64,000 bases of DNA from Closterium sp. NIES-65 (Eukaryota > Streptophyta > Zygnematophyceae > Desmidiales > Closteriaceae). Below, piece by piece: positions 24,059 to 64,000 of the stretch (position 1 is its first letter; each line of letters begins with the position of its first letter). A program made the translations under genes and the position numbers. The notes under the pieces were generated by a model. It saw only the letters and a program-made list of their open reading frames with translations. It had not been told where the DNA came from and ran no database searches. The stretch lies in assembly GCA_948144175.1 (NCBI GenBank), contig CANXME010000418.1:1-64000 (forward strand), given 5' to 3'.

Positions 24059-24096
<38 letters not shown>

Positions 24097-29116: not shown

Positions 29117-29248
29117 TGTCAGAACTTATAGCTTACTTGTTTCTGTAGGCTATAGTGGGGTATCCCATAGGGGGTACAACCCAATTAGGGTTTCCTATTT
29201 GTACTCACTTCGTTCATAGTCATTCCACTTCTCGTTCGTACTTTCTCA
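29117..29248 (+). repeat. Element D 3' LTR (132 bp)
   Basis: It is identical to the 5' LTR as read, and GGCCA (29249-29253) follows. Confidence 0.94.
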
Positions 29249-29971: not shown

Positions 29972-30095
29972 TGTCAGAATATTATGCTCTAGCCTGTAGT
30001 GGGGTGCTCCATAGCGAGTACAACCCTTCTAGGGTTTGCTATTTGTATCCCCATTCTTGCTAGTTCAACCCTCTTCTCTCTTCTAAACTTTCACA
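29972..30095 (+). repeat. Element E 3' LTR (124 bp)
   Basis: It is identical to the 5' LTR as far as I can compare, and TAACC (30096-30100) follows. Confidence 0.92.
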
Positions 30096-30100
30096 TAACC

Positions 30101-30211
30101 GTCTGACGCTTCGAGTCAATTCTGACTCCTCGCATTCGTTCTCGTTACTTCATGCTTCCTTAGTTGCGGTGAGGGCTGCACTGTAATGTTCATACATTAC
30201 TATTCGTAACA
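30101..30211 (-). repeat. C1 5' LTR, second part
   Basis: This continues the LTR after element E and its target copy (30096-30100). It ends in TTCGTAACA, the inverse of the start at 7186. Host DNA follows. Confidence 0.75.
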
Positions 30212-31283
30212 GCACCCCCCTCGAAAATCACATTTTATTACAAGCGAATGTGCGCTTATATCCGGGGTCTTACGGTAGTATCCCTTATTTCGTTTTTTCA
30301 TATCTCATTATTTTTCCTACAGTCTTCGTTTTATACGCTCTCTCCTCCTCTCCTTTATCTCTCCACTCAAGTTCCACTCCTCTCTTTCACAATAATTTGA
30401 TTTACTCCCACTTCTCTTCACCCCTCCATTTCTCCATACTCGTTAATAGCAATATGTAAATAACATGTATTGTACTTTTGTTACGGGTGCAATGAATCGA
30501 AGTAGCGAGAATTGCACTAAAGTGTCAAACGAGTACAAAATGTGAGCGAAGGCATGAGCGAACATTTATACGCGAAACATGCAAACGGTAACGCGGTGCG
30601 TGCGAGCTAGCTAGTGCTACGCTGGAGCGAGGCTCGGGCTAGTCCCAAAGCGTATGCCGACACGGCCGGTCCAGCAGTGCGAGGTTTGGGAAAACAGTGC
30701 GCGCTAAGTCGGCGAAGCCCTGTTAGTAGTAACGGGCGAACAACGGCTGCTGCTGTACGCGATGTTGCAGGGTGCGCTAAGGAATATCAAGAAAATTCCT
30801 TACAACTCTCCTTTTATTGAATGAGCAGCAGCACCCCTCACCAGCCTCTGCACCACACCAAGATTGAACAATTTCCGATATACGCTCACTGATGACCCAA
30901 CCATACTGCTCCATCTACGTCTCTGGCAGGCCAAGCCTCGGGAATGTCCAAGAGTCATCTAATGTTCCCTGGATTCCTCTAAACCTAATAGACGCCGGCA
31001 GCCATACTTCGTAGGAGCACTCCGCGAGGAGACCAACGCGAGCTCGAAAGTCCTTATTTTGAGAGCGATTTTCTGCACGTTTTGGTTTCGCGCGGCGTCG
31101 TCCCTGCCGTAGGAGGTAGCTCCGTAACTCCGAGTGCGCCATATCTCCGTCAACATGGCGAAACCTCCGTCCTTAGCTTCGTAACATCCGCATTGGTGAT
31201 GCATTCAGTCATTCTCCCGACTTGATTTCCCGCTCATTTCTGCCTAGTCAGTCACTTCCCATCGCACACACTAAGCAGCGCAC
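30212..31283. other. Intergenic region upstream of SCD1
   Basis: This is host DNA between the C1 LTR and the SCD1 start, presumably including the SCD1 promoter and 5' leader. I find no recognisable gene. Two short overlapping minus-strand frames (30959-31204 and 30915-31142) encode basic peptides I do not recognise. A divergent small gene is possible but unsupported. Confidence 0.4.
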
Positions 31284-34200: not shown

Positions 34201-36215
34201 TGTTGCGAGCAATCAAAAGAGGGCGAGTTGTTGGTGACTGTGAGTCAGCCCACGCTTGAAAGGTTTAGTGTGCTCCACTCTCTGCATCTCATTGCAACCA
34301 ACCCCCCCTCCCATCCCTCCACGCCCACATCCCCTGTGCCAGTGGGTGCTGGTGTGCCCAGACAGACACAAGATGTGTGCCGACCACAATACAGACGCGT
34401 TGAAAAATACGCGAATGCACATCTCCCTTCAACCAAACCCTCCCTCAATCCCCATCCCACCTCACCCCTCCTTCAACCCCCCCTTACCCGCTCCCCGTGG
34501 CAGGTGGTACTGGTGGATCTGGATTCCAACCGCGTGCGCATGATGAGTCTGGAGAGCGAGCAGGAGGAGGAGGACATCCCGCCGCTGCCCGAGCCCGAGG
34601 CCTCCGAGCTGAGGGCGGCACTGCACGCGCTGATCCACCCGCACCTGGCGGTGCTGGAGTCGGTGAGGCACCACCGCTCGCCGCTGCTGGCTGCGGGCGT
34701 GCAGCAGTTTGACGAGAAGACGTTCAAGACGTGGGGCCGCCACCACGACGAGCAGTTCCGGTGAGGGCGGTAGCACTGGCAGTTCGGGTGGGAGTGTGCT
34801 GGTGGATTTATCACTGTGTCCTTACATTCAGTTGTGATATGCTTGCTGTTGTAATGTGACCCACCCAGCAGCATGGCACCCCTCCTCCTGACGCTCTGTC
34901 TTGGTGCGCATGGTTGCTCTCGCATGTGCTTGAATTGAACCCATCCCACCGTGCTCAACAAGTTTCTGACACGACCCTGACATGTTCCCGCTCTCACGAC
35001 CCTGACATGCTTGTCACATGCTCCCCTACATGCTCCCGACATGCCCACATCATGTGCTGCTCACCATGTGCAGGCAGCTGTTTCTGCGCTTCCTGGCGTC
35101 CGTGCTGCATGGCTACAAGGACTTCGTGGTGCGTGCTCCTGCTCTCTCACACGCTCACACACTCGTACTCGCACACTTACACACGCGCACACTCACACGC
35201 TCACACAGTCACACACCCTCACACTCTCACACTCCCACACCACACTTTCCTCCTTCCACCTGCTGCCTGCTTATGTGTGTTGCATCACCCACTGTGTTGC
35301 CCCATATAGAGTATCGGTTTCGCTTCTGCCTTGCACCTGCTCCACTCTCCCACACAACCCCTTCATCGTCCTCCCCCCTTTCCAACCGAACCTCCCTCTT
35401 CCCCCTTGCTTGCTCCCTGCGTGCGGTGCGGTGCGGTGCGGTATGGCAGATGGAGGATCATTTTGAGGCGGGCAAGCTGGTGTTTGACAAGCTCAGCTTC
35501 CTGCTGCGCCGCTCCGAGCTCTACGATCACGCCACCGAGCCCTTCGTACGTCCCCTCTGCCATGCCCTCCACCACCACACCCTACCACACCCCGGGCACA
35601 CCCACACTCGTCACACTTGACAAGCAGTTGGATCGTTTCCAGAGAATCCAGATAACAAGAAGTGCTCAAGTGTGAGCCCGCAGTCTGTGCCGTGTCTTAC
35701 AACCGAAACGCCAGCATCCTACTCTCACCCCCCAACCCCCCTCCGCTGCTTGCCCCTTCCCTGTTACCCACACCGCGTCCCGCCCCTACACCCCGCTCTC
35801 CCGCCCCCTCCCTTCTCCTTCCCTCTCGTTGCTACGTGTGAGGCAGATCGAGGCGATGCTGACAACGCTGGGGTGGCACAACCTCTTTGAGTGCGAGCTG
35901 GCGCACTCACCACCCGCCCCCCTCCCCGTCTTCACAACCAATCTCCCCTTGCTCCTCCCATTTCCCTGTTGTCTTTCTTCCTCCCGCGGTTTCGCCTGTG
36001 GCACTGGTGATGCGTATATGCGAGGCAGATAGAGGCGATGCTGTCGACGCTGGGGTGGCACAACTTCTTTGAGTGCGAGCTGGCGCAGTCGCCCGAGGAG
36101 CTGACGCAGTTTGACGCCATCATGCAGCGCGCACACAACAAGGACCCCCACATCACAATCCCCCCGCTGCCTCCCACCGACTTCCTCACCGTCGACATCT
36201 ACCAGGCGCTGCCAG
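31284..36215 (+). other. SCD1: SCD1 DENN module (exons 1-11)
   Basis: Residues about 25-500 hold the three-part DENN region. The u-DENN part starts FLDYFVVCGLGLDLRLMDG. The core DENN part includes FPRSYPIILTEGDGTKVYVS, PIWDIIAGVMSVPLP, SCLDIDNIIQLFTAVLLERR and GLLYPYKWM. The d-DENN part follows VVLVDLDSNRVRM and includes LFLRFLASVLHGYKDFV. DENN domains act as Rab exchange factors; activity here is inferred from the family. Confidence 0.85.
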
Positions 36216-37595
36216 GTGTGTGCTGCCAGGTGCTGCCAGCATTGCCAGGTGTGTGCTGCCAGGTGCTGCCAGCATTGCCAGGTGTGTGCTGTCATATAGG
36301 TAGGTCCCGCCATCACGCTCCCCACGCTGCCCACGCTTCCCCCCTGCTTCCCACCAAGTTTCTCACAGTCGACATCTACCAGGCGCTGCCAGGTGTGTCC
36401 TGTCATATCGGTAGGTGCTCCCATGCTGCTAGGTGCTCCCCCCCTGCCATCACGCTCCCCCCCCTGCCTCCCTCCAAGTTCCTCACTGTTGACATCTACC
36501 AGGTGCTGTTGGCGCTGCCAGGTGCTGTTGGCGCTACCAGGTGCTGTTGGCGCTACCAGGTGCTGTTGGCGCTGCCAGGTGCTGTTGGCGCTGCCAGGTG
36601 CTGTTGGCGCTGCCAGGTGCTGTTGGCGCTGCCAGGTGCTGTTGGCGCTGCCAGGTGCTGTTGGCGCTGCCAGGTGCTGTTGGCGCTGCCAGGTGCTGTT
36701 GGCGCTGCCAGGTGCTGTTGGCGCTGCCAGGTGCTGCCACCGCTGCCAGCCAGGCGCGCGCTGCCATCTAGGTGCTGCCTCCGTGCCAGGTGCTGCAAGC
36801 TCCCACCTCTGCTAGGTGCTGCCACTTCCTGCCAGATGCTGCTAGGTGCTGTCAGGTGCTGTCAGGTGCTGCCAGGTGCTGCCAGGTGCTGGCTGCTGCG
36901 ACTCAATGAGCCCAACCAGAAAGGTTCAGCTCTGGTAATGAGCTGAAATATGAGGCAGCAGTTAAAGCCACTCGAAGGTGCAATCAGCAAGTGCCGTGCC
37001 ATGAGCTGACCCGCCCAACTCAATGTGTCCAGTTCATGCATTCTCGAAACCGCAGCTCAACCCTTCCCTTTCCCTCACCTCACGTCCCCCTCCCCATGAG
37101 CCCCTCGTCCCGCCTGCCCAACCGCAGCGGCGAAGCGGGGAGCAGTGGGGCGGTACGTGTACCAGCGCTTCCCCAACAACGAGAAGGCCGGCGGCGAGCA
37201 GGAGGCCAGAAGGTGCGTGCGCACGTGTGTGTGCATGTGTGTGGGTGCTCAATGTGTGTGTGAGTGTGTGTGTGCGTGCGCGGGAAGGGGAGGGGAGGTA
37301 TCAAGCTGCTCTGCTGTTACCCTGCCGTGCCCTCTGTGTCCGCTGGATTGGTGTGGAGTGTTGGCCCAGGCATGAAAGTACAGTAGCAGCACGTTTTGGG
37401 CCACCTTTACCACCTTTACCACCCCTCCACCCCCCTGTGTGTGTGCATTGTTCCCCTCCCACACACTCCTCCCCCACAATCCCCTCTCCTGTGCACGCGG
37501 GGGGCAGTCTGGCGGTGGAGAAGGCCATGAGGGCGTGGCTCAAGGAGCGGCGTCTGGGGCGCACGCGCAGCTCCAAGGAGCGAGGGGTGCGTGGA

Positions 37596-37653
<58 letters not shown>

Positions 37654-40600
37654 CGGGGGGGTTTGTGGGGGTGTGTGGTGGGCGTGGGCGGGGTGTGGTT
37701 GAGTGCGTGCATGTGCAGATGTGTGCGTCTGTTTGTTGTGTGTGTGAGTGAGGATGGGATGCGATTAGGCCATGGCTGAAGGAGATAGGGCTGGGTGCGG
37801 GAAGTGGGGATGGGTAGGGAGTGAGATAGGCAAGGGGAAAGGGAGAGTGGAGTGTGGGGGGGTGGAAGAGTGAGAATTCAGGTTGATAAGCTTGAGCAGC
37901 TGCCTCTGCTTCTATACAACCCCCACTCTCCCCTTCCGCCCCCCTCCCCCTCTCGTCCGTGCTTCCCTTAGTTCTTACCACAGCGCCTGAGACTTGTGTT
38001 CTTCTCGTGTCCCTCCCTTTCTCATCGCCCCGCTTTCTCGTGTGTTATGTGCAACGTGAGCAGGCACAAAGGGAGATGATGAAGGTGGACACACAAGTGC
38101 GCCTCTGTGTGAGTGCTCCCTGCTCCCCCCCCCTCTCACCGCGCCCCTGCCTATTCTTGTGAACCACCTTCCTCTCACCTCATGTAGTCACATTTGTTGT
38201 CTAGTCCGTGCATTTCAGTGTTCACCTGTGTGCCTGTGTATGTGCATGCACGTTTCATGTGGATGTGTGCATGTTTGCCTCTGTGCTTGCTCATGTGCAT
38301 CCATGTTCATACGCATGTGCATGTGTTGATGTGCGTGCATGCACATGTGCAGCAACTATGGGACCAACTACGAGGGCTTCCTCCCGGCGAGCACCCCATG
38401 GGCTCAGAGCATTACGGCACTATCTACGGTATCAACCCTACCCCACCGCACCCCACCCCAGCCCAACCCTCAACTCCTCCCCCACAACTTCGCTTTCCGC
38501 TTACCCCCCCCCTCCTTGCTCCCCCCATCTTCCCCTGGATCCTGACCTCTCAATCCTCACCGTTCAATGCGTCACCCATGCTGTCCTATGCGGTGCGGTG
38601 TGGTGCTGCATGCAGGAATGATCGAGTCGGACCCCGAGGGCTTTGGGGGCTCCAGCTTCCTCGCGTGCCTGGAGGAGAACATCACCATCGTATGCCACTA
38701 CCCCATCCCTCCCCTCGCCTCCCCTCCTGCTCTTCACCCACCAACCACTGTCTGCCTATCTCCCTTCCTTAATGCCTACCTTTCTGCCTCCATCGCAACC
38801 CGCTGTGCCGTTCACATCCGTCCCAATCTCTTACTCACACCCCCCACCCAATCTCCCCTCCCCTCGCTCGCTCTGCCTGCCTGCCTGCATGCCTGTCTGC
38901 GTGTCTGTCTGCCTGTCTGCCTGCCTGTGTGGGTGCATGCAGGGGTGGTCGGGCGAGCTCACTCGAGAGATGTTCATGGCGTGTCGTGAGCTGGTGAGCG
39001 CCTGGGAGGGGGTGGGTGAGGAGCTGGGGCGAGGGGTGCAGAGGGGCTCAAGCATGGGGATGGTGATGATGGTGAGAGGCTGGGGAGAGGGTTGGTGTGC
39101 CACATGGCTGGGGTCAAGGGCATGATTGGTTGACCTGAATCAGTCCCATTCCATGTTTTCTAGCTCCCACTGTCTCTTTTTTCCCCATTTTCTCCAATCT
39201 CCCTCTTCGCTCCTCTGTTGCCATCTTTTCCCCTCTCTTCGCCCCTTTCCTGTCCCGCATCAGATGCTGGTGGCAGCGGCGAGGGCGGGGGAGAGGAGGG
39301 ACTACCAGGTGGCGGGGGGGCTGTTGGAGATAGCGGGGCGCATCTACTTCCGGGACGAGTTCGGCATGCTCGACTTCATGCGCCGCTACCTCGGCTCCCT
39401 GCACGTCTGGCACTCGCAGGCGTGAGTCAATGGCAGGCATGACTTTCTCGCATGGGCAAAGCTGCAAAGTTGCAAAGCTGCTTGTAGAACACTCATACGC
39501 AGAAGCGCCTGGCACTCCTTCAATTTCTCCAACCGTGCCCTGCCGTGTTCCCCTCCCCCCCTCTCCTGGTGCTCCTCGCTCCTCCTCATGTTGTCTCTGC
39601 AGCCTATGGGACGAGCTCTTTGAGCAGCGCATGCAGGAGCTTGGAGAAGAGTAAGCCATTTCCCCTCTCTCGCCCTTATCTCTCATCTGCACTGCCTCTT
39701 CTACGCTCTTCTTGCGATTTCGTTCAAACTTTGCAACGTCTCTGTCTGTCGTGCTGCCCTCCATGGCATCATCCTCTGGTCTGCCCACTGCATCGTTTTC
39801 CCCCACCACACCACACACATGCCCCACCCCTCACCCTCACAGCTTTCCCACCTTTGCTCCAACCCCTTCTTGCCTCCTCGACTCCTCACCTACTCACCTG
39901 CTCATCTTCCCCCTTCCCCCCTTCCCCTTTTCTCCTTCCCCCTCTACCCTCTCCCATTGCCCCCATCCCCCTGGTCTCTAACAGTTCCTTTGGCAACTAT
40001 TCACAGATGGTCATGCTCACACTCAAAGCCTGCGCCTTCCACATGGTACCCGCCCCGCCCCACCTCCCTTCCCCCACGCACCACCTCCCGTCTCCTCCCG
40101 CCCCACCTCTCATTTCTGTCCATCCCACTTTCCCCCACCCATTCCTCCACCCCCCAGTCTCTCTGTGGTTCTTCTCTTGCTCTGCTTCTCCGCAACCACG
40201 AAGTCCATGCCATACCTACTCTGCAGAATCTCGCCCCCCATGGGTCGCTACCTGTGCTCAGCTTGTCACAACATCGCATGCTGCCTCCATATGCCCCTCC
40301 TCCCCTCCCCTCCATCCCTCAGTCTGTCCATCCGTCCGTTCTCTCCCCTTCTGTTTCTCTCCCCTCCCCCCTCATGGCAGGTGGAGTTGGGCATAGCGGA
40401 CAAGGAGACGTGGAAGATGCTGCTGCACCTCGCCAGCGAGCACGGCCTGCGGGAGAAGCGCCAGGTGCCCTGCTGCTGGAGGGAGGGGAGAGGGCGAAGG
40501 GACGGTACCCCGTGCTGCATGGGGGAGATGGTGGCGCTGGGGAGGGGGTTCTGGATTAGTGAATGGCTTGATGGGTGAATGGTGGATGGGTGGAGCTTTT

Positions 40601-43600
40601 ATTGATTGCAGGGAGCAGCTGTCAATGCGTAGTGATGGGTGCGCAGCACAACACTCACACATTCCCCCTGAATTCCATTCCCCCCCTCGTTCCGCTTCTA
40701 TCAGCCCGTCACACCACCAACCAGCACCATACTCGCCCAAACACCCCCCCTACGCTCCCCTTCTCCCGCCTTCTCCTCACCACAGAACCTCCTGCGAAGC
40801 CATCTGTCCCTGATCCAGCTCAAGTGCCATCTGCGGCCCGCCACACCACCAACCAGCATACTCTCGCACACATTCCCCCTACCCTCTCCCTATTCCGCCC
40901 TCTCCCCTCTCACCACCCCCACCCCACTCCAGAACCTGCTGCGCGGCCAGCTGTCCCTGATCCAGCTCAAGTTCCGCTTCTATGGCCCGCCACGCCTGGC
41001 GCTCATGATGGCGCTGGCGCCGCGCATCGCCCCCAAGATGGAGCAGGCCACGCGCCTCAAAAGCGCCTCCATTGCTGGGGGGGGCGGGGCAGGGGCGGAC
41101 GGTATGGCGCGTGTGGACAGTAATAACACTCTGGAGGGGGAAGGGGGGGGTGCGGTGCAGCATAAGGGTCTGTCACGGAGTAAGAGCAAGGCGGGGCGGC
41201 GGGGGGTGAACTTTGATGTGGGGGGGAAGGGTGCGGCGACCACGACGCCCAAGGGCGGGGGAGGAGGGATGACGAGCCCGAGAGGCAAGGGCAAGGCGGA
41301 TGGGCTTGACCGCCGGACAGACCGCCTCGTGAGAGCAGGTGCGTGCAGGCTGCTTGCATCACTCGTGCCGTGGCATGTGATAAAAGTGCTGTTTTGAGAC
41401 GTCTCAAAACGAGCCCGAGAGGCAAGGGCAAGGCGGATGGGCTTGACCGCCGGGCAGACCGCCTCGTTCAAGCAGGTGCGTGCAGTGCAGGCTGCTTGCA
41501 TTATCTGCAAAACTTGTGCTGTGGCATCTCTGTTCTTGTCCTCATTCAACAGCAGCGTGGTCAGCACCATTGGTGTTAGCACGTGTCAGCGCCATCGCTG
41601 TCAGCACCGTCACATCACAATCACACCTACCCAGATCAGCCCTCTCAACGCCTCTCCCAATCCCCTCACCATCCCCTCAAAGCCTCCCACCCTCCCACAT
41701 TCCGCCATCCTTGCCACTACTCCCATCCTCCCTCCCTCCCTACCCTCCACCCCCGTGCGCCTGCCCCTCAGAGCCGGTGCACCATCAGGCGAGGAAGGAG
41801 GGCGAGGCGGGCGTGAGGGTGCTGAGGGGGCACAGTGCAGCGGTGACAGCGCTGCACGTGGGGTCCGTGAGCGACCTGGGCGACCTGCTCTCCGGCTGTG
41901 ATGACGCCGGCTACTTCGTCTCCGGCTCCGCTGACCGCACTGTGAGTCCCTGATTGCGCTCATTGCAGTCCACTGTCTCACCATCCTCCACTCTATCCTC
42001 CACTCTATCCTCCACTCTATCTACCCTTCTCCTCTGCCGTTCTCCCATTTCCTCTGCCCTGCCCAATCCCACTGTCTCCCCCATGTCCACATGTGTGTGG
42101 GGATGGCAGGTGAAGCTGTGGAGTGCGAACCGTGTGGGCGCAGAGATGCGTGCCACCATGCGAGGTCACGAGGGGTGCGTGCCGGGGGCTGATGGGGAGG
42201 AGAGAGCATGGGGAGTGGGTGGGGTGCATGGGAGGCTGTGCGTGAGGGAGGGGGCGGGGGCATGAAGGGAGAGGGTGTGGAGTGAATTCGGGGGACTGGG
42301 GCGATCAAGTAGAGAGTGCACTCAGTGGTGGTGCCTACCCTGCCCTTTCAGCCTCACACTCACACACCGCCACATCAGATCTCCCGCCCATTCATTCCTG
42401 CGGCCTCATTCCCGCTCTCCCTGCCACCACACACTGTCTCACCCCGTGCTCCAACTCCTCACTTCCCCTCTTCCGCTCTTCTCCCCTTTCCTCCATTTAT
42501 CCCCCCAGCACGGTGCGCGCCATCTCGTCAAATGCGAGCAGCATCCTGTCAGGTGGAGACGACTGCAAGGTGCTGCATTTCGACAAGCGCACCTCGCTAC
42601 CCCTCGCCACCCTCGACGCCCACACTGCCCCTGTAAGCGCCTGTTCTGATTTCTGGCGCACCTCAAAAGTAGAGATTCTCACCGCCCCAGTGTGTGTGTG
42701 TCCGTGTTGGGAATCCGCCCCCGTGAGTGAAAGCGTGGTGTGCTTTTCCCCCTGCTCCCCATCCCACTTTTCCACCTCCCCCCCTCCCCAGGTCTCCTGT
42801 GTGCGCTTCCCGTCGAGGCCCACTGTCACCCCTGTGTGCAGCAGTGACAGCGGGCCTAGACGGCCTCGTGGAGGTGTGGGACATGCTTCTCATGCCTCTC
42901 ACCCGCTCTCTCCCCCCCCTTTTTTCCATCCCACTCTCCCCCCTCCCCGCTTCCTCCTGCCTGTCCACCCACAGATCTCCTGTGTGCGATTCCTCTCCGG
43001 CTTCGCGCGCAGTGCAGCAGTGACAGCAGGGCTGGACGGGCTGGTGGAGGTGTGGGACATGCGCTCGCACCGCCGCGCTCTCACCGCGGCGCAGCCCGCA
43101 CAGGGTGCTGCCGTGCTGTGCCTCAGCTGGCACGAGGACGCGGGAGGGCTCATTGCCACAGGGCACACTGACGGGTACGCGCTGTGACTCGTACCAAAGC
43201 TCGTTATGGCCAACCCGCACATGATGCTGTGGCGCTTTGCTCCAGTTATCACGAGGACGAGGGGGGCTTATTGCCACAGGGCATGCCGTCGTGTACATGT
43301 ATGTGTATGTGTGGCTAGGTTGGGCATGACGGTTGTCTTGAGTCGACTCCAAACACAGCCTGCACGGGGCGCTGCAGTGCTGTGCCTCAGCTGGCACGAG
43401 GATGGGGGGTCCTTGTTGCTGGGGGGTACTGCATGTGCTGCTGGGGGATACTGCATGTGCTACTGCTGTGTGGTTCTTAGCAGAGACCTCTCCATGCCTT
43501 GTTCCGACTCATCCCCTTCCTCCTCTTGTTACTCCTCTCCTCACTCCTCTCCTCACTCCTCTCCTCACTCCTCTCTTCACTCCTCTCCTCACTCCTCTCC

Positions 43601-50985: not shown

Positions 50986-51045
50986 TCACAGGTCGGGCTG
51001 TGGTGTAGTCCTTAGATAAGACTTGCCGAAGGGGAGCTCAACCGT
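50986..51045 (-). other. PER1: Peroxiredoxin last exon
   Basis: 60 nt encoding TVELPFGKSYLRTTPQPDL and a TGA stop at 50988-50986. It follows a 124-bp intron. Confidence 0.87.
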
Positions 51046-51169
51046 CTGCAGCATGCACAAAGCAACCAACCTACAAACCAGGACATCACCTGAGAAATCC
51101 ACATGGAAAACTGGAGGGGTGTGAGAGAAATGCATCAGGTGAGAGGTTCATGCTGAATAGAAGGCTCAC

Positions 51170-51313
51170 CTTGAAGCCCTTGTGGAACTTTTCTTTGGTT
51201 GCCTCGTTGCTGACTGATGGAGCAACTATGACGTCATCGACGTGCTTCCAATCCACTGGCGTCGCCACGCTGTACTTGGCCGTCAGCTGCAGGCTGTGTA
51301 TCACCCACAAGAT
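51170..51313 (-). other. PER1: Peroxiredoxin C-terminal exon
   Basis: 144 nt between CAG acceptor and GTGAGC donor. It encodes the dimer and tail region with YSVATPVDWKHVDDVIVAPS. Confidence 0.88.
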
Positions 51314-51462: not shown

Positions 51463-51572
51463 TGTGAGAATGAGGAATGGTGTATCCATTGATGTTGGTT
51501 GGGGTACATATGACAAACCCTAACTTCTGTACCCCCTAAGACAAACCTCACTACAGGCTACAACATTTGACA
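51463..51572 (-). repeat. Element F 3' LTR (110 bp)
   Basis: On the plus strand it runs TGTGAGAATGAGG to CATTTGACA. GATAC precedes it. Confidence 0.93.
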
Positions 51573-51775
51573 CACCCCCATAGCCTAAGTGAGGGGTGTC
51601 TAGCAAAATAAAAAAGAGTACGGTCACAAGACCAGTCCAAAAGAAAACAAAGCTCAGGGTGGATCACAACGTCACCACATACTCTGAGCACAAGCAACAG
51701 TGGCCACAAGGCCAGTCCAAGAGATCACAAGTATATATAGCAAGTGTACATACGAAGCAGGCAATAAACTCAAGT

Positions 51776-54700
51776 CTACACATGACTAGAACCTGTGTCA
51801 ACAAGGCCTAACTGCACACAACACCTCTGGTGGTCACAAGGCGGAAGCGCCTTGGTGAAGATGTCTGCAGTGTTGGCCTCGGACTCCACGAACTCGAAGC
51901 GAGCCTGTCCACGTCTCTGCAACTCTCGCAGAAGAAAGTACCTGACGTGAATGTGCTTCACTCTGCTCTCCAGTCGCGGCTCACGACAGAGGAGGATCGA
52001 CGCCTTGTTGTCAGTAAACAAGGTCGGTGCAGAGCTCGGCCGCTCACCAAGGTCGGCGAGCAAGAAGGTCAACCACCGCAACTCCTGTGCCGCCATGGCA
52101 CCAGCGTAAATCTCAGCCTCAGCTGTAGAGGTCGAGACAGAAGAGGAGCGCGTGGAACGCCAGGAAACAGCTCCAGAACCCAGACTGAAACAGTACCCCT
52201 GAGTAGACCTGTGAGTCTCAGCGTCGTCAGCGTAAGAGGAGTCACAGTGACCAGTGAGTACGACAGACTGCTGCCCTCCAAGAACTAGCCCCACGCCTGA
52301 TGTAGTCGCTAGGTACTTCGCCACCCTCACAGCTGCCGTCCAGTGAACAGGACGGTGTCTCCCTGGCGCAACAAAGCGCGCAAGGATGCTGAGAGGGAAG
52401 GCGAGGTCCGGGCGAGTACAAGTCATCAGGTACATGAGGCAACCCACAAGCTCTGCGTAGGGACCACTAGGCTCAAACGGCTCGTCAGGAAAGGGACCAG
52501 TGAGTCTGTGGTCAACAGCGAGAGGTGTGCGCTGTACGGTGGAGTGCTGAAGCCCGAACCGCTGAAGGACCTGCTGCACCATGTGTGACTGTGAGAGTGT
52601 AATGGTGCGAGCGGCTCTGTCCCTGGTGATCTGCAGGCCAAGGTAGTGGCGCAGCTCACCAAGATCAGTGCACGTGTGTCTCTTCTGCAGTTCGGACTTC
52701 ACGTCTGCCAAAGCAACCCTGTCCGGAGTGGCGAAAACGAGGTCGTCGACGTAGACCAGAACAAAGAACGGTGTGGAGCCACGACGAACGAACAGCGACG
52801 GGTCGGCAGAAGACGGCTGGAACCCAAGGTCAGAGAGGGTAGAACGCAGAGTGTCGTGCCACTCGCGAGGGGCCTGGCGAAGACCGTAAACAGGTCGCCT
52901 CAGCCTCCACTGGGTCCCAGGAGGGAAAGTGCCAGTGAAGGCCGAGGGACGACGCAACCATACCTCCTCGTGTAGGCTGCCCTGAAGGAAAGCAGTGGAG
53001 AAGTTGAGAGAGTGTAACTCGTAGTCTCTCTGTGCTGCTACGTGTAGTAACACCCGAAGAGTGGTCATCTTCGGGGTAGGTGCGAAGGTCTGAAAGAAGT
53101 CAACTCCCTCGCGCTGACTGAAACCTCTAGCCACGTAGCGCGCCTTGAAGACCGGGGGAGATCCCGGTGGCCGCTTCACCCTGTAGATCCACATGCCGTC
53201 GACTACGTTCGCCCCAGGGGGGGGAACCTCATCGACGTAGGTGCCTGTGGATCCGTAGGAGGCCATCTTTGCGTCCATGGCAGCTCTCCACTGAGATGCC
53301 CAAGGCCCTGACACTGCCTCAGCGTAAGTGCGAGGAGTCGGAATGTCAAGGGCGTCGGGGTCACCCTCAGGGGCGAGGAGCATGGCACAGAGATGAGGGG
53401 AAGCGGCCGCCAGGAACTCTAGCTCAAACTGCCTGTCCTCTAGGGCGTCACAGCCAAGGGCAGACACACCCCCGACGGCCAGAGGACTGGTAGGAGGAGC
53501 AGCCACAAGCGTGGTGGCGTAGTCAAGGCGGCGGGTAGCGGCAAAGTCAGTAACCGCGGCAGTAAGAGCAGACACAGAGGACACAGAGGCACGAGGGTGA
53601 GTAACAAGAGAGGCGAGAACACGAGAGAGAACAGGACGGTACGTGCGGTAGTAGTCAGTGACAGGAGCAGGGAGCGACACGGTGAGGGCCGACTCAGGAG
53701 GAGACGGAAGCACAGAGTGAGACGGACGAGGTGGACTGGAACAAAGTAAGGCAGTACGAAGGTCAGTGAAGGGAACAGGAGACGAGGGACGAGCACGAGG
53801 GGAGCGGCGAGTAGCCCAAGAACGAGACGGAGGAGGAGAGGACAAAGGCGGAGAACTAGAGAAAACAGCGGGGGAGGAGTCAGGCGGAGGAAACGTGGGA
53901 CCGTAGACAGGAGGAGAGGCGGAGGAGGGAGGAGAAGGGGAGGGGAGACCAAGGGCCCGAAGACCCGAGACAGGAGGAGGAAGTGGCTGCTGCTGCTGCT
54001 GCTGCGACTGCTGCTGCTGCGGACGCGGCTGCTGCTGGGACTGCTGCTCCTGCGGGTCCAGCTGCTGCTGCTGCTCCGCCAGCCGCTGTAACTCCCTCTC
54101 CTCTCTCTCCAACTCCAGCTGCTCGTCACGCGCACGGCGAACACGAGCCTGGTGCCTAGTCGGGTAGGGGTGGGGGGGCGGAGTAGTGTCCGAAGCAGCG
54201 GCAGCTCCAGAGTCAACCCCCGAAGAACCAGGCGCACCACCCCCAGAGGCAGCACTAACACCAGCTCCAGACCCAGGCGCACCAGAACCCGAAGCAGGCG
54301 CACCCTCACCCCCAGAGGGAGCACCCCCAGAGTCCGCGCGGCCAGCACCGGCTCCCGGACGACAAGAGTCCTCTGCACCCACCGGGTCAGCTCCAACTCC
54401 AGAACCAGAAACTCCAGCTCCAACTCCAGCACCCCCAGAACCAGAAACTCCAGTGCCTACTCCAGCTCCACCTCCAGCTCCAACACCAGCTCCAACTCCA
54501 GCACCCCCAGAACCAGAAACCGGTACAAGAACAGGCGCAGCACCAACCTCTCGAGAGCTAGCACCAGCGGCACGCTGCGAGGAGGACTGTGGGGAGGGAG
54601 GCTGTACCGGAGGGGCTACCGAAGGAGGAGGGGTAGCCTGGGACACACTTGACGGGGCTGGGCCAGGGGGGGGAGGCTGTACCGGGGGAGCAGGAGGGGG

Positions 54701-57700
54701 AGCGGCAGTCAGGAAGAGGGGGGGAGGAGGAACCGGGAGACCTCGACTGGGGTACCTGACGTAGTACGGAGTGGACTCCTCGAAACGGACGTCACGGGAG
54801 TCAAAGAACCGGTGAGAGGGAGGGTGGTAAAAGGTGAAGTCAGAGGAGTCCTCAGGGAAACCAAGGAAGACACAGGGGACGGCACGAGGCGAGAGCTTGT
54901 CCGCGGAGGTGTCGCGGACAAGAGCCAAGCACCCCCAGACACGAAACCGCGACGCAACACCAGGGGACCCTGTCCAAAGACTGGTCGGTGAAACCTCTGG
55001 TCGAGAGACACGTGGCCAGAGGTTCAGCTGGTGCGCGGCGTACCTGACCGCGTAGGGCCACAGAAAATGGGGGGCGCAGGCGTGAGTCAGGGAGGTGCGG
55101 GCGATCTCCATGACCAGGCCTATGCGGCGCTCAGCAACCCCATTCTGCTGTGGGGACTCTGGAAGCGTCCAGGACTGACGAATGCCCTGCTCGTGACAGA
55201 ATCCAGCGAGAATGCCGGAGCGAAACTCACCCCTACGGTCGGAGTGGAGACAGCTGACACGACGACCACGAGTGTCCTCGGTGGTGAGCAACCACCTGAT
55301 CAGCGTAGAAGTCACCTCAGACTTCTTCGCCAGTGGGAACACTGTGGTGTAGCGGGAGAAGTCGTCAACGACCACCAGAAAGTAACGCTCACGCTCAGGG
55401 CCTAGACGAGGGGCGGGGCCCCAGACGTCCAAGTGAAGCGTCTCAAAAGGCTCGGTGGCCGGACGAAGGGAGGAGGAGTGAGGGGTGGCGCGCAGCCTAC
55501 CCTCGACGCAGGGACGACACGGCGGCGCAAGCGAAGGCGGCAGCGACGGCAAGACACGTGGGAGGCCTAGGACAAGACGCTGACTAGACATAGCGCGCAG
55601 ACGAGGAAGGGACGGGTGCCCCATCCGGTGGTGCCACAGAACGGTGGGGTGGGCAAGCGACCGGCAGGAGCACGACGCAGCGACTGGAACAGACGTAGGA
55701 ACCTGACACGATACAGACACCTGGGGGGACGAAGCAACCTGGTGAGACACGGGGACCCGAACGGGGGGGGGAACCGGGGGCAGTGGCAGTAGGGGGGGCT
55801 GCTAGTGCGGCCGCTGGTGCTGCTGCTGCTGCTGCTGCTGCTGCTGCGGCTGCTGCTGCTGCTGCGGCTGCTGCTGCGGCGCACGCGGGCCAGTGTGAAG
55901 AGTGTAGAGACCCGAGCCCGGCTCAGCAGTAAAGGTAGCAAGAGGCTGGTAAGAGTCTCCGTCAACACACACCGCAGTCTCTCCAGAAGGCTCAAACCAC
56001 ACACCCACGTGCTGACTCACGAGGGGTCGCACGCCCACCAAGTTCCGGGAGAACGAGGGGACGTGAAACCCAGTGAGAGACCCGGAGGGAGCAGCAGGAC
56101 ACGGTAAAGTGGTAGTGTGACGGGCAGTGACTGGTCCCGTAGTGGGATCAGCCAACGCTACAGAAACAGGCGCAGGAAGTGGTGTAAGTGTCGTGCTGTC
56201 CCGGAAGAAGCAGCGGGAGGCTCCAGAGTCCAGTGTGAACGACAGCGAAGCGTCCCCTGAGGTAGTCGCTGGTCTAGAGTCTACACAAGTACCTACACTA
56301 GCAACAGGCAACTGAGCAAGACTAGTACCTAAGCTAACAACACCAGAGTAAACAGAGTCAGAAACACTAGAGTCAACAACAGGATACATAGCATGAGGAG
56401 CACTAATCAGATCAACTAACTGCTCAGCAGACATGCCCCACAGAGCGGAGCCGTAGCGCTGAACCAAAGGAAGCCAGTCAGGAGCAGGACCGCCAACCCC
56501 GTAGGTCAACCGGACCGTGTCAGTGAGCTGAGCAAAGCACTGACCAGGGGGGTGAAAGCGGCCACAAGGGTGGCCCCGACGAGGACCTGTCTGAACCTGG
56601 TAGGGGCAGGGAGGGTAAGCCGCACCGCGCTGGGGCTGACACAGCCCCGACCCCGGAGCCAGCTGCTGACGCTGCTGCTGCTGAGGCTGCTGGGAGGAAA
56701 GGGGCTGCTGCTGCTGCTGAAGGTGCTGCTGACGCTGAGCCTGGTACCACGCCGCTGCTCCACCTAGCGGGGCCGGCAGTACAGGAGGCGACTGACTAGC
56801 TCGAGGGTCGCCGCCACCAGCAGGTGCAGTGGAGTCTCCAGCCGCTGCACGAGGGGTCTCTCCAGACGCTGCACTCCCACCACCCCCAGTCGCAACAGCA
56901 CCCCCACTACCTCCGCTACCTCCGCCTCCACCTCCACCAGAACCACCTTTCTTGCCCCCCCTGCCGCGGGACCACGACGCAGTCGTAACAGCAGCCGCAG
57001 TCGCGTCAGTAGCGGCAGTGGCAAGAGAGGCAGTGAAGGTGGGTAACTGCGGGACTGTGCACCCGTGGAAGAGTGGGGGGGACACAGTACCAGAGGCGGC
57101 AGCTACCGAACGAAGGTTGCTCTCGACGTCCTTGAGTGCAGACTCAAGGACCTCGATAGTCAGCTCACTAGGGTGCTTCAGCAGAAGCGCGTCACGAACG
57201 GAGGCAAGGCGGTCAGGGAGGCTAGTGGCGATGAAATAGACAGTGATCGCCATGGGGGGAGGAAGCAGTGTAAGCTTGGCCTCAGTGCAAGCAGCGCGGT
57301 AACTAGCGTCGAGCGAGCGGAGGTGAGCGATCAAGTCAGCAGTGCGCTCAAACGAGGCAAGATCAGGAAACAGGAACGGGAGGAAAAGACGGCCAAGAGA
57401 GACAGTAGCGGGAGTAGAGTAGCGGGCCTTAATCGCAGTGAGGTACGCAGCAGCGGTGTGAACCTGAGTAAAGTGGACCTCCTCGGACTCAGGGAGGAGG
57501 CTGCCGAGTGCGATGCAGGCCGCAGCGTCACGCGACGTCCAAGCCGTCCGGTCAGCGCGCTGACGGGCAAAGCGAGCCGTAGCAGCGTCGTCAGGAGCAG
57601 GGCCTAAAGCAGTAGGCTCGGGGGGCTCAGGGAGGTCACCAGTAGCGTGTGACCAGAGGGTCTCGCCCCCCTGGACCTGACTCTCTAACAGACGGCGAGC

Positions 57701-57772
57701 GCGAAGAAGCCAGACGGAAAAGTCAAGGGGTCTACCGTCAGCGTCGAAACGAAGAACTCGCGGAGTCGCCAT
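51776..57772 (-). pseudogene. Element F gag-pol region, fossil
   Basis: Gag opens MATPRVLRFDADGRPLDFSV and carries SLGRLFLPFLFPDLASF, a short Gly tract, Gln runs and the wide-spaced knuckle CPYQVQTGPRRGHPCGRFH followed by C. Protease shows TLDSGASRCFF. Integrase shows HHRMGHPS, LDVWGP, HSDRRGEF and NGVAERR. A Gly/Ala/Ser-rich linker and Gln runs follow. Reverse transcriptase shows YVARGFSQREGVDFFQTFAP and YVDDLVFA, and RNase H shows TSTAEAEIYAGAMAAQELRW. There is about one break. Confidence 0.92.
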
Positions 57773-57839
57773 AGTGAGGACTAAAGCGAACGAACAGGCG
57801 AGTAACAACCGGGGGGGAAGAGGACTCAGTCGCAGCGGA

Positions 57840-58445
57840 AGAGCGGGCTAGAGCGACGGGCCAGTACGTAGGGTAGGGCAACGGGCCAGGGCCTAGGGTA
57901 GGTCGACGGGCCAGGGCCTAGGGTAGGGCGACGGGCCAGGGCCTAGGGTAGGGCGACGGGCCAGGACTTAGGGAGGGCGACGGGCCAGGGCCTAGGGTAG
58001 GGCGACGGGCCAGGGCTTAGGGCAGGGCGACGGGCCAGGGCGTAGGGCAGGGCGACGCGACGGGGGAAAGGGCGGGAGCGACGCGACGGGGCAGGGCGAC
58101 GCGACGGGACAGGGCGACGCGACGGGGCAGGGCGACGGGACGGGGCAGGGCGACGCGACGGGGTAGGGCGACGCGACGGGACAGGGCGACGGGACGGGAT
58201 AGGGTGACGGGACGGGGTAGGGCGACGCGACGGGACAGGGCGACGGGACGGGGGGGGAACAGGCGGGCACGACGCGACGGGGGGAACGGGCGCGACGCGA
58301 CGGGGGGAACGGGCGCGACGCGACGGGGGGAAAGGGCGTGACGGGGGGGGGGGAAAGGGCGCGACGCGACGGGGGGGGGGGGGGGGAGGGTGCGCTAGGC
58401 GACGGGGAGAAAGGGCGCTAAGCGACGGGGGAAAGGGCGCTAGGC
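57840..58445 (-). repeat. GC-rich tandem-repeat leader of element F
   Basis: On the plus strand, 25-bp units on GGGCGACGGGCCAGGGCCTA (about 57880-58050) grade into shorter units on GGGCGACGCGACGGGACA (about 58060-58330) and G-runs. Confidence 0.8.
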
Positions 58446-58552
58446 TCGGTAACAACGGAACTGGTACGAACGAGAGGTAGGATCAGGCTCGGGAGGTACG
58501 AACGGAGAACGGAGGAACGGGATCCCACAGGATCCTAACCTAGCTGATACCA

Positions 58553-58662
58553 TGTCAGAATGAGGAATGGTGTATCCATTGATGTTGGTTGGGGTACATA
58601 TGACAAACCCTAACTTCTGTACCCCCTAAGACAAACCTCACTACAGGCTACAACATTTGACA
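58553..58662 (-). repeat. Element F 5' LTR (110 bp)
   Basis: On the plus strand it runs TGTCAGAATGAGG to CATTTGACA, one base different from the 3' LTR. GATAC follows. Confidence 0.93.
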
Positions 58663-58716: not shown

Positions 58717-58781
58717 CTCATGAAAATTGCGATCAGTGGTTGCGGGGTACAGGATGGAGAGCTTGAGCGTCTTATCCGGGC
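58717..58781 (-). other. PER1: Peroxiredoxin exon, part after element H
   Basis: It encodes DKTLKLSILYPATTDRNFHE and ends at donor GTGCGT. Counting the target sequence once, the ancestral exon is 186 nt, exactly 62 codons. Confidence 0.87.
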
Positions 58782-58978
58782 TATCAGAGTTATATTATTG
58801 TAACTGCATGTAGATATAGCAGTAGTGTAGTTATCACATTCTGTTTGGTGGATTACCCCCTTTCCTATCATATTTGTACCCTTAGCTCTATAGTGAAGTC
58901 CTCTTTCATTGCCAACTCCCTCACACTCTACCTCCTAGCATGGCTCCTAAGGCTAAACCCTAGCAACATATCCTGACA
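58782..58978 (+). repeat. Element H 5' LTR (197 bp)
   Basis: It starts at TATCAGAGTTATATTATTG and ends CATATCCTGACA. The primer site follows directly. Confidence 0.9.
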
Positions 58979-59871
58979 TGGTACAGAGCAGGAATTTCTC
59001 CTGAGGACCTATTTTTTTTAATGATCATGGGCCCACCCGTCGCGCCGCCCGTAATGCGCCCCGCGGGTCCCCCGAATCGCCCCGTGGACGAACCCCGCGG
59101 GTCCCGTTTTTCGCTTTCTGCAGGCCCTTCGTTTTGCGTCGCGCCCGTGCGCCCTTTTCGTCCGTCACGCTCCCCCTGTCGCCCCGCGATCCGCCTTCGC
59201 CAGCGCGGACGCCAGCGCCACGGCCAGGCGCGAGCGCCAACGCTGCAGCCAGCCGCGAGCGCCAGCGCCTGCGCGGACCGCCAGCGCCACCGCCAGCAGC
59301 TGCGACGGCCGCCAGCGCTAGCGCCAACGCGACCGTCAGCGCCGGCAGTGGGTGATTCCGCCCTTCCCTTCCGTCGTGGGGGGGGGTTTGGGGGGAGGGG
59401 GCGGGTGTGAGGAGCCTGCCGCTCCTCCCTCCCTTCCCTCTTCCTCTCTCCCTGCAGCAATTGTTGCTGAGGGGAGGGGGGGGGAGAGAGGGTAAGGGGG
59501 GATAAAGGAGGGTATGAGAGAGAGAGTGGCAGAAGCAGCAGCCCTGCATTTGCAACTGCCACCCCCTGCTCCTGTGGCATCTCCAGCTGCAGCCCCTGTT
59601 GCCACTTAATTCGTCTCTTTCGTTTGCTGCTGTTGAGCGGCAGGTGCTGCCGTTGAGCCTGCTGTGCCGCCGCTTGTTGCCGCCGCACGCCGCTCTCCAG
59701 GCGACCTGCGCCACATGCACCCTTCTTTTGTTTCTGTATTGGCTAAGGGGTTTCTGCTGTTGTTTCTGCCACTGCTGCACTGGTTGTCATTGCTCTTGCG
59801 TGCTAATGCTTTCAGTACACTTGCGGGTTGTGATTTATGCTTTGCTATTCCTGCATGCAGTTAAGGGGGGA

Positions 59872-60068
59872 TGTCAGAGTTATATTATTGTAACTGCATG
59901 TAGATATAGCAGTAGTGTAGTTATCACATTCTGTTTGGTGGATTACCCCCTTTCCTATCATATTTGTACCCTTAGCTCTATAGTGAAGTCCTCTTTCATT
60001 GCCAACTCCCTCACACTCTACCTCCTAGCATGGCTCCTAAGGCTAAACCCTAGCAACATATCCTGACA
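59872..60068 (+). repeat. Element H 3' LTR (197 bp)
   Basis: It starts TGTCAGAGTTATATTATTG after the purine tract and ends CATATCCTGACA. CGGGC follows. Confidence 0.9.
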
Positions 60069-60194
60069 CGGGCCCACCACGAACACGGCTCGCGCTGTCA
60101 GAGGCAGCCCCGCCACGTCCTTCGCCACTGCATCCAGCATGCCCAGCTTCACCGCGATGTCGCGACTCGGGTCCGCGATTATCGGATAGGTGAC
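60069..60194 (-). other. PER1: Peroxiredoxin exon, part before element H
   Basis: It encodes VTYPIIADPSRD to FVVGP. The first five bases on the plus strand (60069-60073, CGGGC) are the target copy made by H. The rest of the exon is at 58717-58781. Confidence 0.88.
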
Positions 60195-60233
60195 CTTGCG
60201 TAGGGAGCAGGCCCTCATATTCGTTTTTGGCCT

Positions 60234-62208
60234 GTCTGATTCGTCAGACTCTCTCTCTCATTATTAGTCTGAAATCCTCAAGAGTTGTCTAAAAAAAAAG
60301 TCTGAAACGTCAGAGTGTGTTTAAAAAAAAGTCTGAAACTTTCAGAGTACACTCAAGTAAAAGTCTGATTGTGCTTGTTGTAGCCCTAGTAATCATATTG
60401 AAGCAAGCCTACTCCACTTCTCATACAGCTTTGCCTACATTCATACTCGTACTACTACTACCAATGATGCTGCTTAGCCTTCACAAGATCACAGTTAGAA
60501 TAGAACTAACTAACTAACTACCCTACCTACATCCAGTCAGCAAATCCATCGTCATCATCACTGTCAACTGCATCTTTCTCAGCGTCTAAGTCTACCACTT
60601 CCATCTCGTCATCAACCTCCCTACTGTTCTTGCTCTGTTGCCTTCCTGCAGGCGGGAGTGGAGCGTTGCTTTGGGGCTTGCGCTTCTTGTAGCTCCTCCA
60701 GATGGTCACAATTTCATCCCACTTGGGCTCGTAGTCCATGAGACTCATGCACATGAGGTCTCCTAGGCGTGCATCTTTCAGCGCGCCTCTCTGCCACGAC
60801 TTGATGATGTTCTGGCGGGAGAATCCCCGCTCGCACTCCACTGTGCTCAGCGGCAGTACGGCTACTGCCACCCACAGAAGCACGAGGTTGGGGTAGTTGT
60901 CCCGTTAGTCGGGTGTCTTGAGCATGGCAGTGAGCCCGGCGTGGAAGCTGCGCTCGTTCTTCGTGGCTCCTGCAAGCACCGAGGAGAACATGCGCAGCTC
61001 CATTTCCGCACGACGCTTGTTGATTCCTGGTGGAAGAGTAACAGTAGACTATGCTTAGTGAATATACAGTGAAGCACAACATATGCAATGCCAATTGCAA
61101 CAGTTACATGAGAACTACACAAACATAAGCTTACCGGGGAGGATCTCCTCGGTCTGGTCGGCCTTGAAAAGGGTCACAAGCGACTCCAGCCACTCCATGC
61201 ACCTACGGTTCCTCTCTCCTCGATCCAGCGGGTACTCGTCGGGGGTGAATAGCCTTGCCCCAGACATCCCTTCCAGATCGTGCGCGCCGTGGTCAGAGGC
61301 GAATGCTGCGAGGCCGCACCCTCAGTTGGTTCCGCAGGTGTCTCTGCCACATGTTCGGCAGACAGTGAGATAACCGGTGCCGTCGGTTCTTTCTGTGTGG
61401 GGATCGTATCGGGTGTGGCGCGTGATGCCTTGTCGAGTTCTAACGTACTGAGAAGAAAGTCTAAGCCTGTTAAGGCAGGCTGGGAATCAGGGTCGGGATC
61501 GCTGGAGCCGGGATTGTCCAGCACCGCCATGGCGGGGTTCAGAAAGAGCCTGCCGAGCAGGAACAAGAAATGTGTTCGCGAGGCAGAACTAGGGACTGGC
61601 TGAGGCCAGTCAACACCAGCTAGGGGGTGTGGATGAAACCCTAGCTGAAAGGTGATGGCAATAGACAAGACAAGGAAGACCCGTTGAGGTGGATGGGTGG
61701 TTGCCTTGCATGCACGACAACGACGAGGCACGTCAGAAGTGCAATGCTGTCAGCGTTGTGTCGTGGGTGGCTAGTGCAGCATCGTGGGTGCAAGGCCGGT
61801 CAATGATGGCACACAGAAGCTGTCATAAGGACCAATCGGTGCTCTACCAGGGTGTGCGCAGGTGTTTACGTAGGAACAACCGCGTCGTAGGGCGGCCACG
61901 CCCACAAAACTTGACTGTTGATGTGTGGTCCCAGGTTACGCGTGATTGACCACCCAGGTACACTTACTAGCGCAAATCGTGGGTGTGGGTGCCAAGGTAC
62001 ATTGAATCAGTTTCAGAGTCCGTACGCATTTGACTCTGAATTATCAGAGTACACTCAAAAAAATCTCTGAAATTGCAGACTTGGCTTAAAAAAAAACTCT
62101 GAATTTAACAGACAACACTTAAATAAAAGTCTGAATTTAACAGACAACACTAAAAAAAAATTCTGAGAAATCAGACTTTTATAGGCAAATCAGAGAAATT
62201 TCTCTGAC
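60234..62208 (-). mobile_element. hAT DNA transposon remnant in a peroxiredoxin intron
   Basis: It is bounded by two AT-rich subterminal regions (about 60234-60375 and 62005-62208). In these, short motifs TCTGAA, GTCTGA and TCAGAG alternate with A/T runs, in inverted orientation at the two ends. Between them a hAT transposase C-terminus lies on the minus strand. Exact terminal inverted repeats and an 8-bp target duplication could not be fixed by eye. The BED zinc finger and the catalytic core were not seen, so it looks like an internally deleted copy. Confidence 0.72.
60527..61300 (-). pseudogene. hAT transposase C-terminal fragment
   Basis: Two exons on the minus strand: about 61300-61135 (FTPDEYPLDRGERNRRCMEW, VTLFKADQTEEILP) and 61026-60527, joined across a 108-bp GT..AG intron. 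The second has the hAT dimerisation signature LPLSTVECERGFSRQNIIKS and an acidic C-terminal tail. An in-frame stop (plus-strand TTA near 60905) lies in the second exon, just before RDNYPNLVLLW, so the fragment cannot be translated through. Frame usage upstream of 61300 is unclear. Confidence 0.75.
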
Positions 62209-62357
62209 TTCATGGGGCCTGGTGGGGAGAGGATGATGATTGAGAGGAAGCGGAACAAGAAAAAAAAAACTCTGGGCTGGAAATCTTTCTGTTGCCAATC
62301 TATCGAGGAGCATGGATTTCTATGTGTCGAGGATGCGCTTAATGAGGCATGACATAC

Positions 62358-62518: not shown

Positions 62519-62743
62519 CTGCAAAGATGCACGCAGCGCGAAATCCGTGCCCACCGCAATTGACGGTCCATCTCAAAAATCACGAATGGGTTTTCGGTAT
62601 GCGGTTTCCCGCTCCGCAAACAGTAGGCGAAATGAATCCCCGTATGGTAAGTAAATGTGTACTCCATAGTTACCATAATTGGTTTAGTACCGTATGTAAA
62701 ACGCTACTGTAAAACGATTTTGTATATGCTAAATATATATATT
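62519..62743. other. Peroxiredoxin intron remnant before element G
   Basis: Sequence upstream of the catalytic-Cys exon on the minus strand. No start exon is found, so it should lie beyond element G. Confidence 0.5.
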
Positions 62744-62875
62744 TGAGAAGAAGTGAACGAGAATGGATGAACTATGAATGAAGCGAGTACAAATATGAAA
62801 CCCAAATTGGGTTGTACCCCCTATGGGATACCCCACTATAGCCTACACAACAACATAAGCTATAATGTTCTGACA
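62744..62875 (-). repeat. Element G 3' LTR (132 bp)
   Basis: It matches the B LTR in the half nearest the internal region (TGTCAGAACATTATAGC on the minus strand). ATATT precedes it as a possible target copy. Confidence 0.85.
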
Positions 62876-63087
62876 CACCCCCATAGGCAAAGTGGGGGAG
62901 AGCAAGGGGTCACAAGACCAGTCAAGCAAAGCAAAGCAAAGCTCAGGGTGGATCACAAAGTCACCACACATTCCGAGCACAAGTTCAAAGGCCAAAAGGC
63001 CAGTTCACATGCAAGATCACATATAGAGATATACAAGAGTCAAGCAAGCAAGAGCAAGAGTATATATAGGTGAAGGTACAAGCAAGG

Positions 63088-64000
63088 TCAAGAAGTGAGC
63101 AAGTGAGGCAAGACAGGCACAAGACCCAGCTGCGTGCAGCAACGCTGATGATCACAGGGCGCAAGTGCCATGGTGAAGACATCAGCAGTGTTGGCCTCAG
63201 AGGCCACGTACGCAAGTCGCAACTGTCCACGCTGCTGCAGCTCACGAGCAAGAAAGTAGCGGAGAGCAATGTGCTTTGTCCTGTGCTCAATTCGCTGCTC
63301 TCGACACAAGGCCAGCATAGCCTTGTTGTCTACGTACAGGACTGGAGGAGAACGCGGCGGCTCTCCATGGTCGGTCAGCAGGTAGGTGAGCCAGCGAAGC
63401 TCCTGGGCAGCCATAGCCCCCGCGTAGATCTCAGCCTCACAACTGGAGCCGAGAACAGAAGACGAGCGGGTAGCCCACCACGAAACAGAGCCGGAACCAA
63501 GGCTGAAGGTGTAACCCTGTGACGACCGCTGCGTAGCCTGGTCGTCAGCCCAAGAAGCGTCCGCGTGCCCAGTGAGGACCACTGGACTCCGCCCTCCAAG
63601 CACTAGCCCCATGCCCGACGTACTGCACAAGTAGCGCAACACCCTCTTCGCTGCAGCCATGTGCTCTGGTCGGTGTCTCCCAGGAGCAACATAGCGTGCG
63701 AGAATGCTAAGAGGGTATGCAAGGTCAGGTCGTGTGCAGGTCATCAGGTACATGAGGCAGCCAACAAGCTCTACATACGGGCCACTCGACTCTACGGACT
63801 CATCCGAAGGCAGAGCTGAGAGCGAGTGGCGAGTAGGCAGAGGAGTGGCCTGAGGCGAGGAGTACGTGAAGCCGAAGCGCTGAAGGACCTGCTGCACCAT
63901 GTGTGACTGAGTCAGGGTAATGGTGCGGCGTGCTCTGTCCCGGGTGATCTGCAAGCCAAGGTAGCTGCGCAGTTCACCCAGGTCAGTGCACGTGTGTCTC
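63088..64000 (-). pseudogene. Element G RT/RNase H region, partial
   Basis: This is the C-terminal part of pol on the minus strand, with its stop at 63088 and open to the right edge. It is nearly identical to the matching part of B (for example LVPVLPHLLTS at the end). Confidence 0.88.

Follow-up and report, generated by a model that had tools for sequence, protein, structure and literature searches.

In the 64,000 nucleotides analysed here (the whole stretch, referred to as the window, which belongs to contig C418), an exon of a peroxiredoxin gene is interrupted by a short LTR retrotransposon, named element H. The locus raises the question whether H destroyed a gene that was functional until its arrival, or whether it struck a copy that was already being lost.

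Element H and its empty site

The following features describe H and the borders of its insertion site:

58782..60068, plus strand (antisense to the peroxiredoxin gene): element H, non-autonomous LTR retrotransposon, 1287 bp, defined by LTRs, PBS, PPT and duplication
58782..58978, plus strand: 5' LTR, 197 bp, starting with TA and not TG, from the sequence
59872..60068, plus strand: 3' LTR, 197 bp, TG...CA, from the sequence
58979..58989, plus strand: PBS, TGGTACAGAGC, from the sequence and shared with sister copies
59863..59871, plus strand: PPT, AAGGGGGGA, directly before the 3' LTR, from the sequence and shared with sister copies
58777..58781, no strand: target-site duplication CGGGC, first copy, from the flanks and the empty site
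60069..60073, no strand: target-site duplication CGGGC, second copy, from the flanks and the empty site

With two direct LTRs, a duplication of fixed length, and both a PBS and a PPT, H has the characters of an LTR retrotransposon. The LTRs are identical at 196 of 197 positions, the sole mismatch being the second base (TA versus TG), and they enclose an internal region of 893 bp. Three of its eight ORFs with 80 aa or more were scanned against Pfam, and no match was obtained at E 0.01. The sequence-only reading of this DNA had placed the element at exactly these coordinates, correct to the base, and had described the CGGGC duplication beside it, which is indeed present on both sides; its view of H as a recent, non-autonomous LTR insertion agrees with the near-identical LTRs and the three Pfam-blank ORFs.

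A site without H, which that reading had suggested looking for, was found in the same assembly. Both window flanks match contig C1492, where they overlap by exactly 5 bases (344756-344760) with no H between them. A precise excision of H from C1492 was also considered and probably did not take place, as no LTR remains there. An assembly error at the H junctions is hardly credible, given the perfect 5-bp duplication, the typical family anatomy of the element and the match of both flanks to the empty site.

The empty site lies within an intact gene. It consists of six exons on the minus strand of C1492 (345765 to 344170, a span of 1,596 bp), separated by GT-AG introns of 124-269 bp, and encodes a protein of 237 aa with matches to AhpC-TSA (9.2e-31) and 1-cysPrx_C (1.3e-11). 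The PVCT catalytic motif is present, which together with these domains identifies the protein as a 1-Cys peroxiredoxin. Its closest solved structure is HORF6, human peroxiredoxin 6 (1prx, E 3.2e-86), with 140 identities over 218 aligned residues. Unlike this copy, the one in the window is split by insertions and is, by its structure, a pseudogene. Exon 4 of the intact gene (C1492:344696-344881) measures 186 nt, exactly the in-frame exon predicted upon removal of H and one duplication, and exon comparison bears out that the codons split by H are those of VVGPDKT.

A protein search of the assembly returned 13 exon-level matches, located on C1492, C418, C584 and C2353. The gene on C584 encodes a third 1-Cys peroxiredoxin, which reads complete (219 aa) and is identical to the C1492 protein at 132 of 219 aligned residues, while C2353 carries only an exon-5-like fragment. 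The suspected backup copy is thus found twice, as the near-identical intact gene on C1492 and as the more distant intact gene on C584.

Decay of the window copy and age of H

The window copy keeps all six exons in order, but it spans 53,721 bp compared with 1,596 bp on C1492. Its exons, all placed by comparison with the C1492 exons, and its insertions other than H, in introns 2, 3 and 4, are listed in gene order:

C418:104696-104706: exon 1
C418:104302-104453: exon 2
62569..64000, continuing to C418:104199, no strand: insertion of ~41.6 kb in intron 2, with its left end in the window, from alignment to C1492
62358..62518, minus strand: exon 3, with the PVCT motif
60208..62221, minus strand: hAT-like DNA transposon in intron 3, 2.0 kb, from duplication, termini and a domain match below its cut-off
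60069..60194, minus strand: exon 4, 5' part, 126 nt
58717..58781, minus strand: exon 4, 3' part, 65 nt including the 5 duplicated bases
51463..58662, minus strand: Copia LTR retrotransposon in intron 4, 7.2 kb, from 110-bp LTRs (1 mismatch), duplication GATAC and pol
51170..51313, minus strand: exon 5
50986..51045, minus strand: exon 6 with the stop codon

The gene on the window contig is therefore broken, as had been proposed, by H in exon 4 and by further insertions in three introns. A truncation of the gene at window position 62568 was rejected, since exons 1 and 2 were found further along C418.

In the intron 4 element, the pol ORF matches RVT_2 (1.3e-49) and an integrase core (2.5e-10), with the integrase ahead of RVT_2, the order expected of Copia; a second long ORF has no Pfam match. 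Near its right-hand LTR, a G+C-rich minisatellite of gacgggrcaggg-like units occupies window 57900-58440. The hAT-like element and the acceptor of exon 4 are 13 bp apart. The element is flanked by an 8-bp duplication, GTAGGGAG/GTGGGGAG, with 7 of 8 bases alike, has the termini CAGGCCC.../...GGGCCTG, and gives a match to a hAT dimerisation domain (E 0.00047) whose 20.3 bits fall just below the curated cut-off of 21.4. Intron 2 measures 149 bp in the intact copy. The ~41.6 kb inserted there in the window copy bear ATCTCAAA close to one of their outer borders and TTTGAGAT at the opposite one. In the part read, which excludes C418:84001-102707, they contain repeated units related to those of window 1-29 kb, which are taken to be LTR elements. 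Long repeated units also flank the gene in opposite orientations, at C418:62743-84000 and at window 1-29236.

The coding sequences of the window and C1492 copies differ at 15 codons, 14 of which change the amino acid and one of which is silent. Divergence is about the same in coding (15/714, 2.1%) and non-coding positions (59/2511, 2.35%). Furthermore, 68% amino-acid changes would be expected for this sequence under neutrality, and the observed 14 of 15 lies mildly above this value (P 0.027). As coding divergence approximates the non-coding one and the share of amino-acid changes is not below the neutral level, the comparison gives no indication of purifying selection. Comparison with two outgroups, the C584 paralogue and peroxiredoxin 6, places the changes mainly in the window copy: at the 14 sites the intact copy agrees with the outgroups 11 times, the window copy once and neither twice. 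At site 219 it is the intact copy, and not the window copy, that departs from the outgroups. Exons 5 and 6 (50986-51313) carry 7 changes in 204 coding bases, all of them amino-acid changes, against 1 in 272 intron bases nearby, an excess over what plain drift predicts.

An H of the same age as this decay should show ~8 differences between its 197-bp LTRs, whereas only one is observed (Poisson P about 0.002; P 0.016 without the 4 CpG transitions). However, dating is coarse at this length, gene conversion between the two LTRs would lower the apparent age of H, and the mutation rate of exons may exceed that of the A+T-rich LTRs. Given this deficit of LTR differences, the decay of the window copy most likely began before H arrived.

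The opposite order, in which H knocked out a functional gene that was intact until then and the other insertions and changes came later or were tolerated, has some points in its favour. H is young, insertions in introns can be tolerated, and the exons of the window copy contain no stop and no frameshift apart from H, so the copy may still have provided a weakly functional protein before the insertion. However, a ratio of 14 amino-acid changes to one silent change is too much decay for an element whose LTRs differ at one of 197 positions, and ~41.6 kb have been inserted in an intron that is 149 bp long in the intact copy. We therefore regard this order of events as unlikely. On the same grounds, namely the substitution pattern and the other insertions, H was rejected as the cause of gene loss, and the claim of the sequence-only reading that the host gene had been intact until recently is not supported. 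That claim relied on the restored frame of exon 4, which does not prove recent intactness in view of the other insertions and the 14 amino-acid changes. More generally, a frame that is restored once an insert is removed should not be equated with a gene that was recently alive.

Combined, these observations make it very likely that H inserted late into an already decaying duplicate, while the intact sister on C1492, presumably expressed, keeps the peroxiredoxin function. The proposed course of events is as follows. H would belong to a small family of non-autonomous LTR elements of ~1.29 kb that was active recently, and an autonomous LTR element probably supplied in trans the machinery by which it was copied. 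It integrated, in antisense orientation and with a 5-bp target duplication, into one of two near-identical 1-Cys (Prx6-like) peroxiredoxin copies, within exon 4. By then, this copy was probably free of purifying selection following the duplication, and its introns were already loaded, or being loaded, with transposons. H would thus be a late injury to a duplicate already in decay rather than the origin of the gene loss, and the broken copy presumably yields no protein. Such a locus would provide a clean, coarsely dated case of the dismantling of a redundant copy in a genome rich in duplications, in which selection relaxes, introns fill with transposons and an exon is hit late. As one assembly contains both the unoccupied site and the intact sister gene, it would be an ordinary but unusually well-documented case of duplicate decay.

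Relationship between the two contigs

C1492 300599-344646 is the counterpart of window 1-51462, with which it aligns at 99.1-99.3%; the exception is window 21815-29240, a sequence that is absent from C1492 at the corresponding place. The divergence is not uniform. Over window 30000-42300 (C1492 ~323170-335500), only 7 differences were counted across the 13 one-kilobase bins 30-42, compared with 5-12 per bin between 43 and 51 kb and 2-3% in the vicinity of the gene. This uneven divergence means that the history differs along the locus, and its stepwise form suggests that one stretch was homogenised recently, by conversion or recombination of the two copies. Recombination between sequences of different origin has been reported for strain NIES-4550 (PMC10407611).

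The two contigs could alternatively be two haplotypes of a diploid culture, with H as an insertion polymorphism between alleles. Homologous pieces are collinear over ~120 kb of C418. In addition, the AhpC-TSA family has 12 matches on 8 contigs in the assembly, and two further loci of this family are paired at 98-99% (C450/C1703 at 99.2% for the longest piece and C1266/C783 at 98.3%). On the other hand, haploid cells were sequenced from Closterium peracerosum-strigosum-littorale NIES-65, and this strain has duplicates for over half of the shared ortholog groups (PMC10407611). The 14:1 decay also fits a redundant copy better than an allele. Taken together, allelism is a possibility of some weight but not the probable one, and the two contigs are treated here as carrying duplicates.

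The H family and its splice-site potential

The family of H was searched for in the same assembly (874,075,685 bp). At least 40 matches to the LTR (40 of 951 first-look candidates scored) and at least 41 matches to the internal part (40 of 808 scored) were obtained. An exact 29-base pattern of the LTR start occurs 72 times in the genome, compared with no occurrence of the reversed control. As 71 of these 72 starts read TG, the TA of the 5' LTR of H appears to be a change confined to this copy.

Reading of 18 loci gave 13 rows with both LTRs, corresponding to 11 distinct copies, while the other five loci have one LTR only. A perfect 5-bp duplication surrounds 10 of the 11 copies; the eleventh, on C2202, is bordered on the left by a polypurine tract, as in a tandem array. 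The two LTRs of a copy differ at 0-2 positions, and the H family is recent, to judge by its sequences. Tandem-looking elements with common LTRs (LTR-internal-LTR-internal-LTR, at a spacing of ~1092 bp) were seen at L007/L057 on C2202 and at C718:232950-235163.

Among 68 rows of left flanks of LTR starts, 31 are not polypurine tracts, and 23 of these are distinct by our own count. The flank CGGGC of the window insertion occurs once. Six left flanks recur, each on two or three contigs, and one H-family insertion is shared by C270 and C1254, where it lies inside two near-identical segments. For two of the six recurring groups the neighbouring 1.3 kb were compared and showed 98.6-100% identity, and no match was obtained for an unrelated pair; these two insertions therefore predate the duplication of their segments.

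The PBS occurs in two variants (58979; L002, L055): nine of the 11 distinct copies carry TGGTACAGAGC, and the remaining two have TGGTATCAGAGC, which contains one additional base. With a standard tRNA end, priming at TGGTACAGAGC would imply a one-base bulge. Copies with the shorter PBS have nonetheless spread. No autonomous partner of H was found among its nucleotide matches in the assembly. C1914 was considered for this role and is probably not the partner, since its widely spaced LTRs fit an H copy that received another insertion and whose internal part is present as pieces 1-574 and 570-893. The LTR spacing is likewise wide on C1995.

Compared with known systems, H resembles TRIM elements in its short LTRs, PBS, PPT and 5-bp duplication and in that no coding capacity was found in the ORFs scanned. 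Its LTRs of 197 bp fall within the 100-350 bp given for TRIMs, but the element exceeds their total of 500-900 bp (PMC3281118), and is for this reason described as TRIM-like and not filed as a TRIM. The apparent tandem arrays of the H family recall the LTR-internal-LTR arrays of the plant TRIM Cassandra (PMC7215508). LARDs are likewise non-coding LTR elements thought to be moved in trans, but at over 8 kb (PMC3281118) they are far longer than H. The Ty1/Copia element in intron 4 is, like H, an LTR element with a 5-bp duplication. In contrast to H, it has a long pol ORF, and the LTRs of the two elements do not match. A partnership between the two is only conceivable. Among the titles retrieved for LTR retrotransposons or transposable elements of Closterium, only diatom-genome papers appeared.

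The insertion reads GGGCCC/GTGTCAGG...CTCTGATAG/CCCGGAT on the gene strand. Here, a GT is formed by the last G of the duplication and the T of the LTR, and an AG by the last A of the LTR and the first G of the second duplication. Splicing at these borders would leave 189 nt, open and in frame, with one extra proline, and H might then act as a new, ready-made intron. There is a published precedent, since introners are inserted in exons, take their GT/AG partly from target duplications and add a whole codon (PMC9860276), as in H. However, introner families have median lengths of 30-654 nt, compared with 1287 bp for H, which has weak sites; the term LTR does not occur in the main text of that paper (PMC9860276). 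In the intact gene, each of the five donors shows a G at both -1 and +5 and every one of the five acceptors reads CAG, whereas the donor of H has C at both positions and its acceptor is a TAG without pyrimidine tract. In view of these poor sites, and with the gene decaying anyway, splicing of H seems very improbable. If it did occur, LTR elements would offer a frame-safe route to new introns: whenever a TG...CA element creates a 5-bp duplication with G at both ends on the gene strand, GT and AG always arise, 3 nt are added and the frame is kept. Counted by eye, with the right-hand copies checked for a minority, 10 out of a maximum of 27 distinct left flanks follow this rule in either orientation, compared with ~18% expected at 60% G+C (P 0.015, from one look at a small sample).

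Lastly, an 18S pattern has a single exact match in the assembly, at L058 on C527, where the sequence is 18S-like. Its eukaryotic SSU match covers only 1363 bases over the full 1831-position model. An unusual stretch follows AACAAGGTT in this sequence. Zygnematophyceae have a known group I intron at this very site, which would fit the stretch, but no Rfam group I match was obtained, even at E 1.
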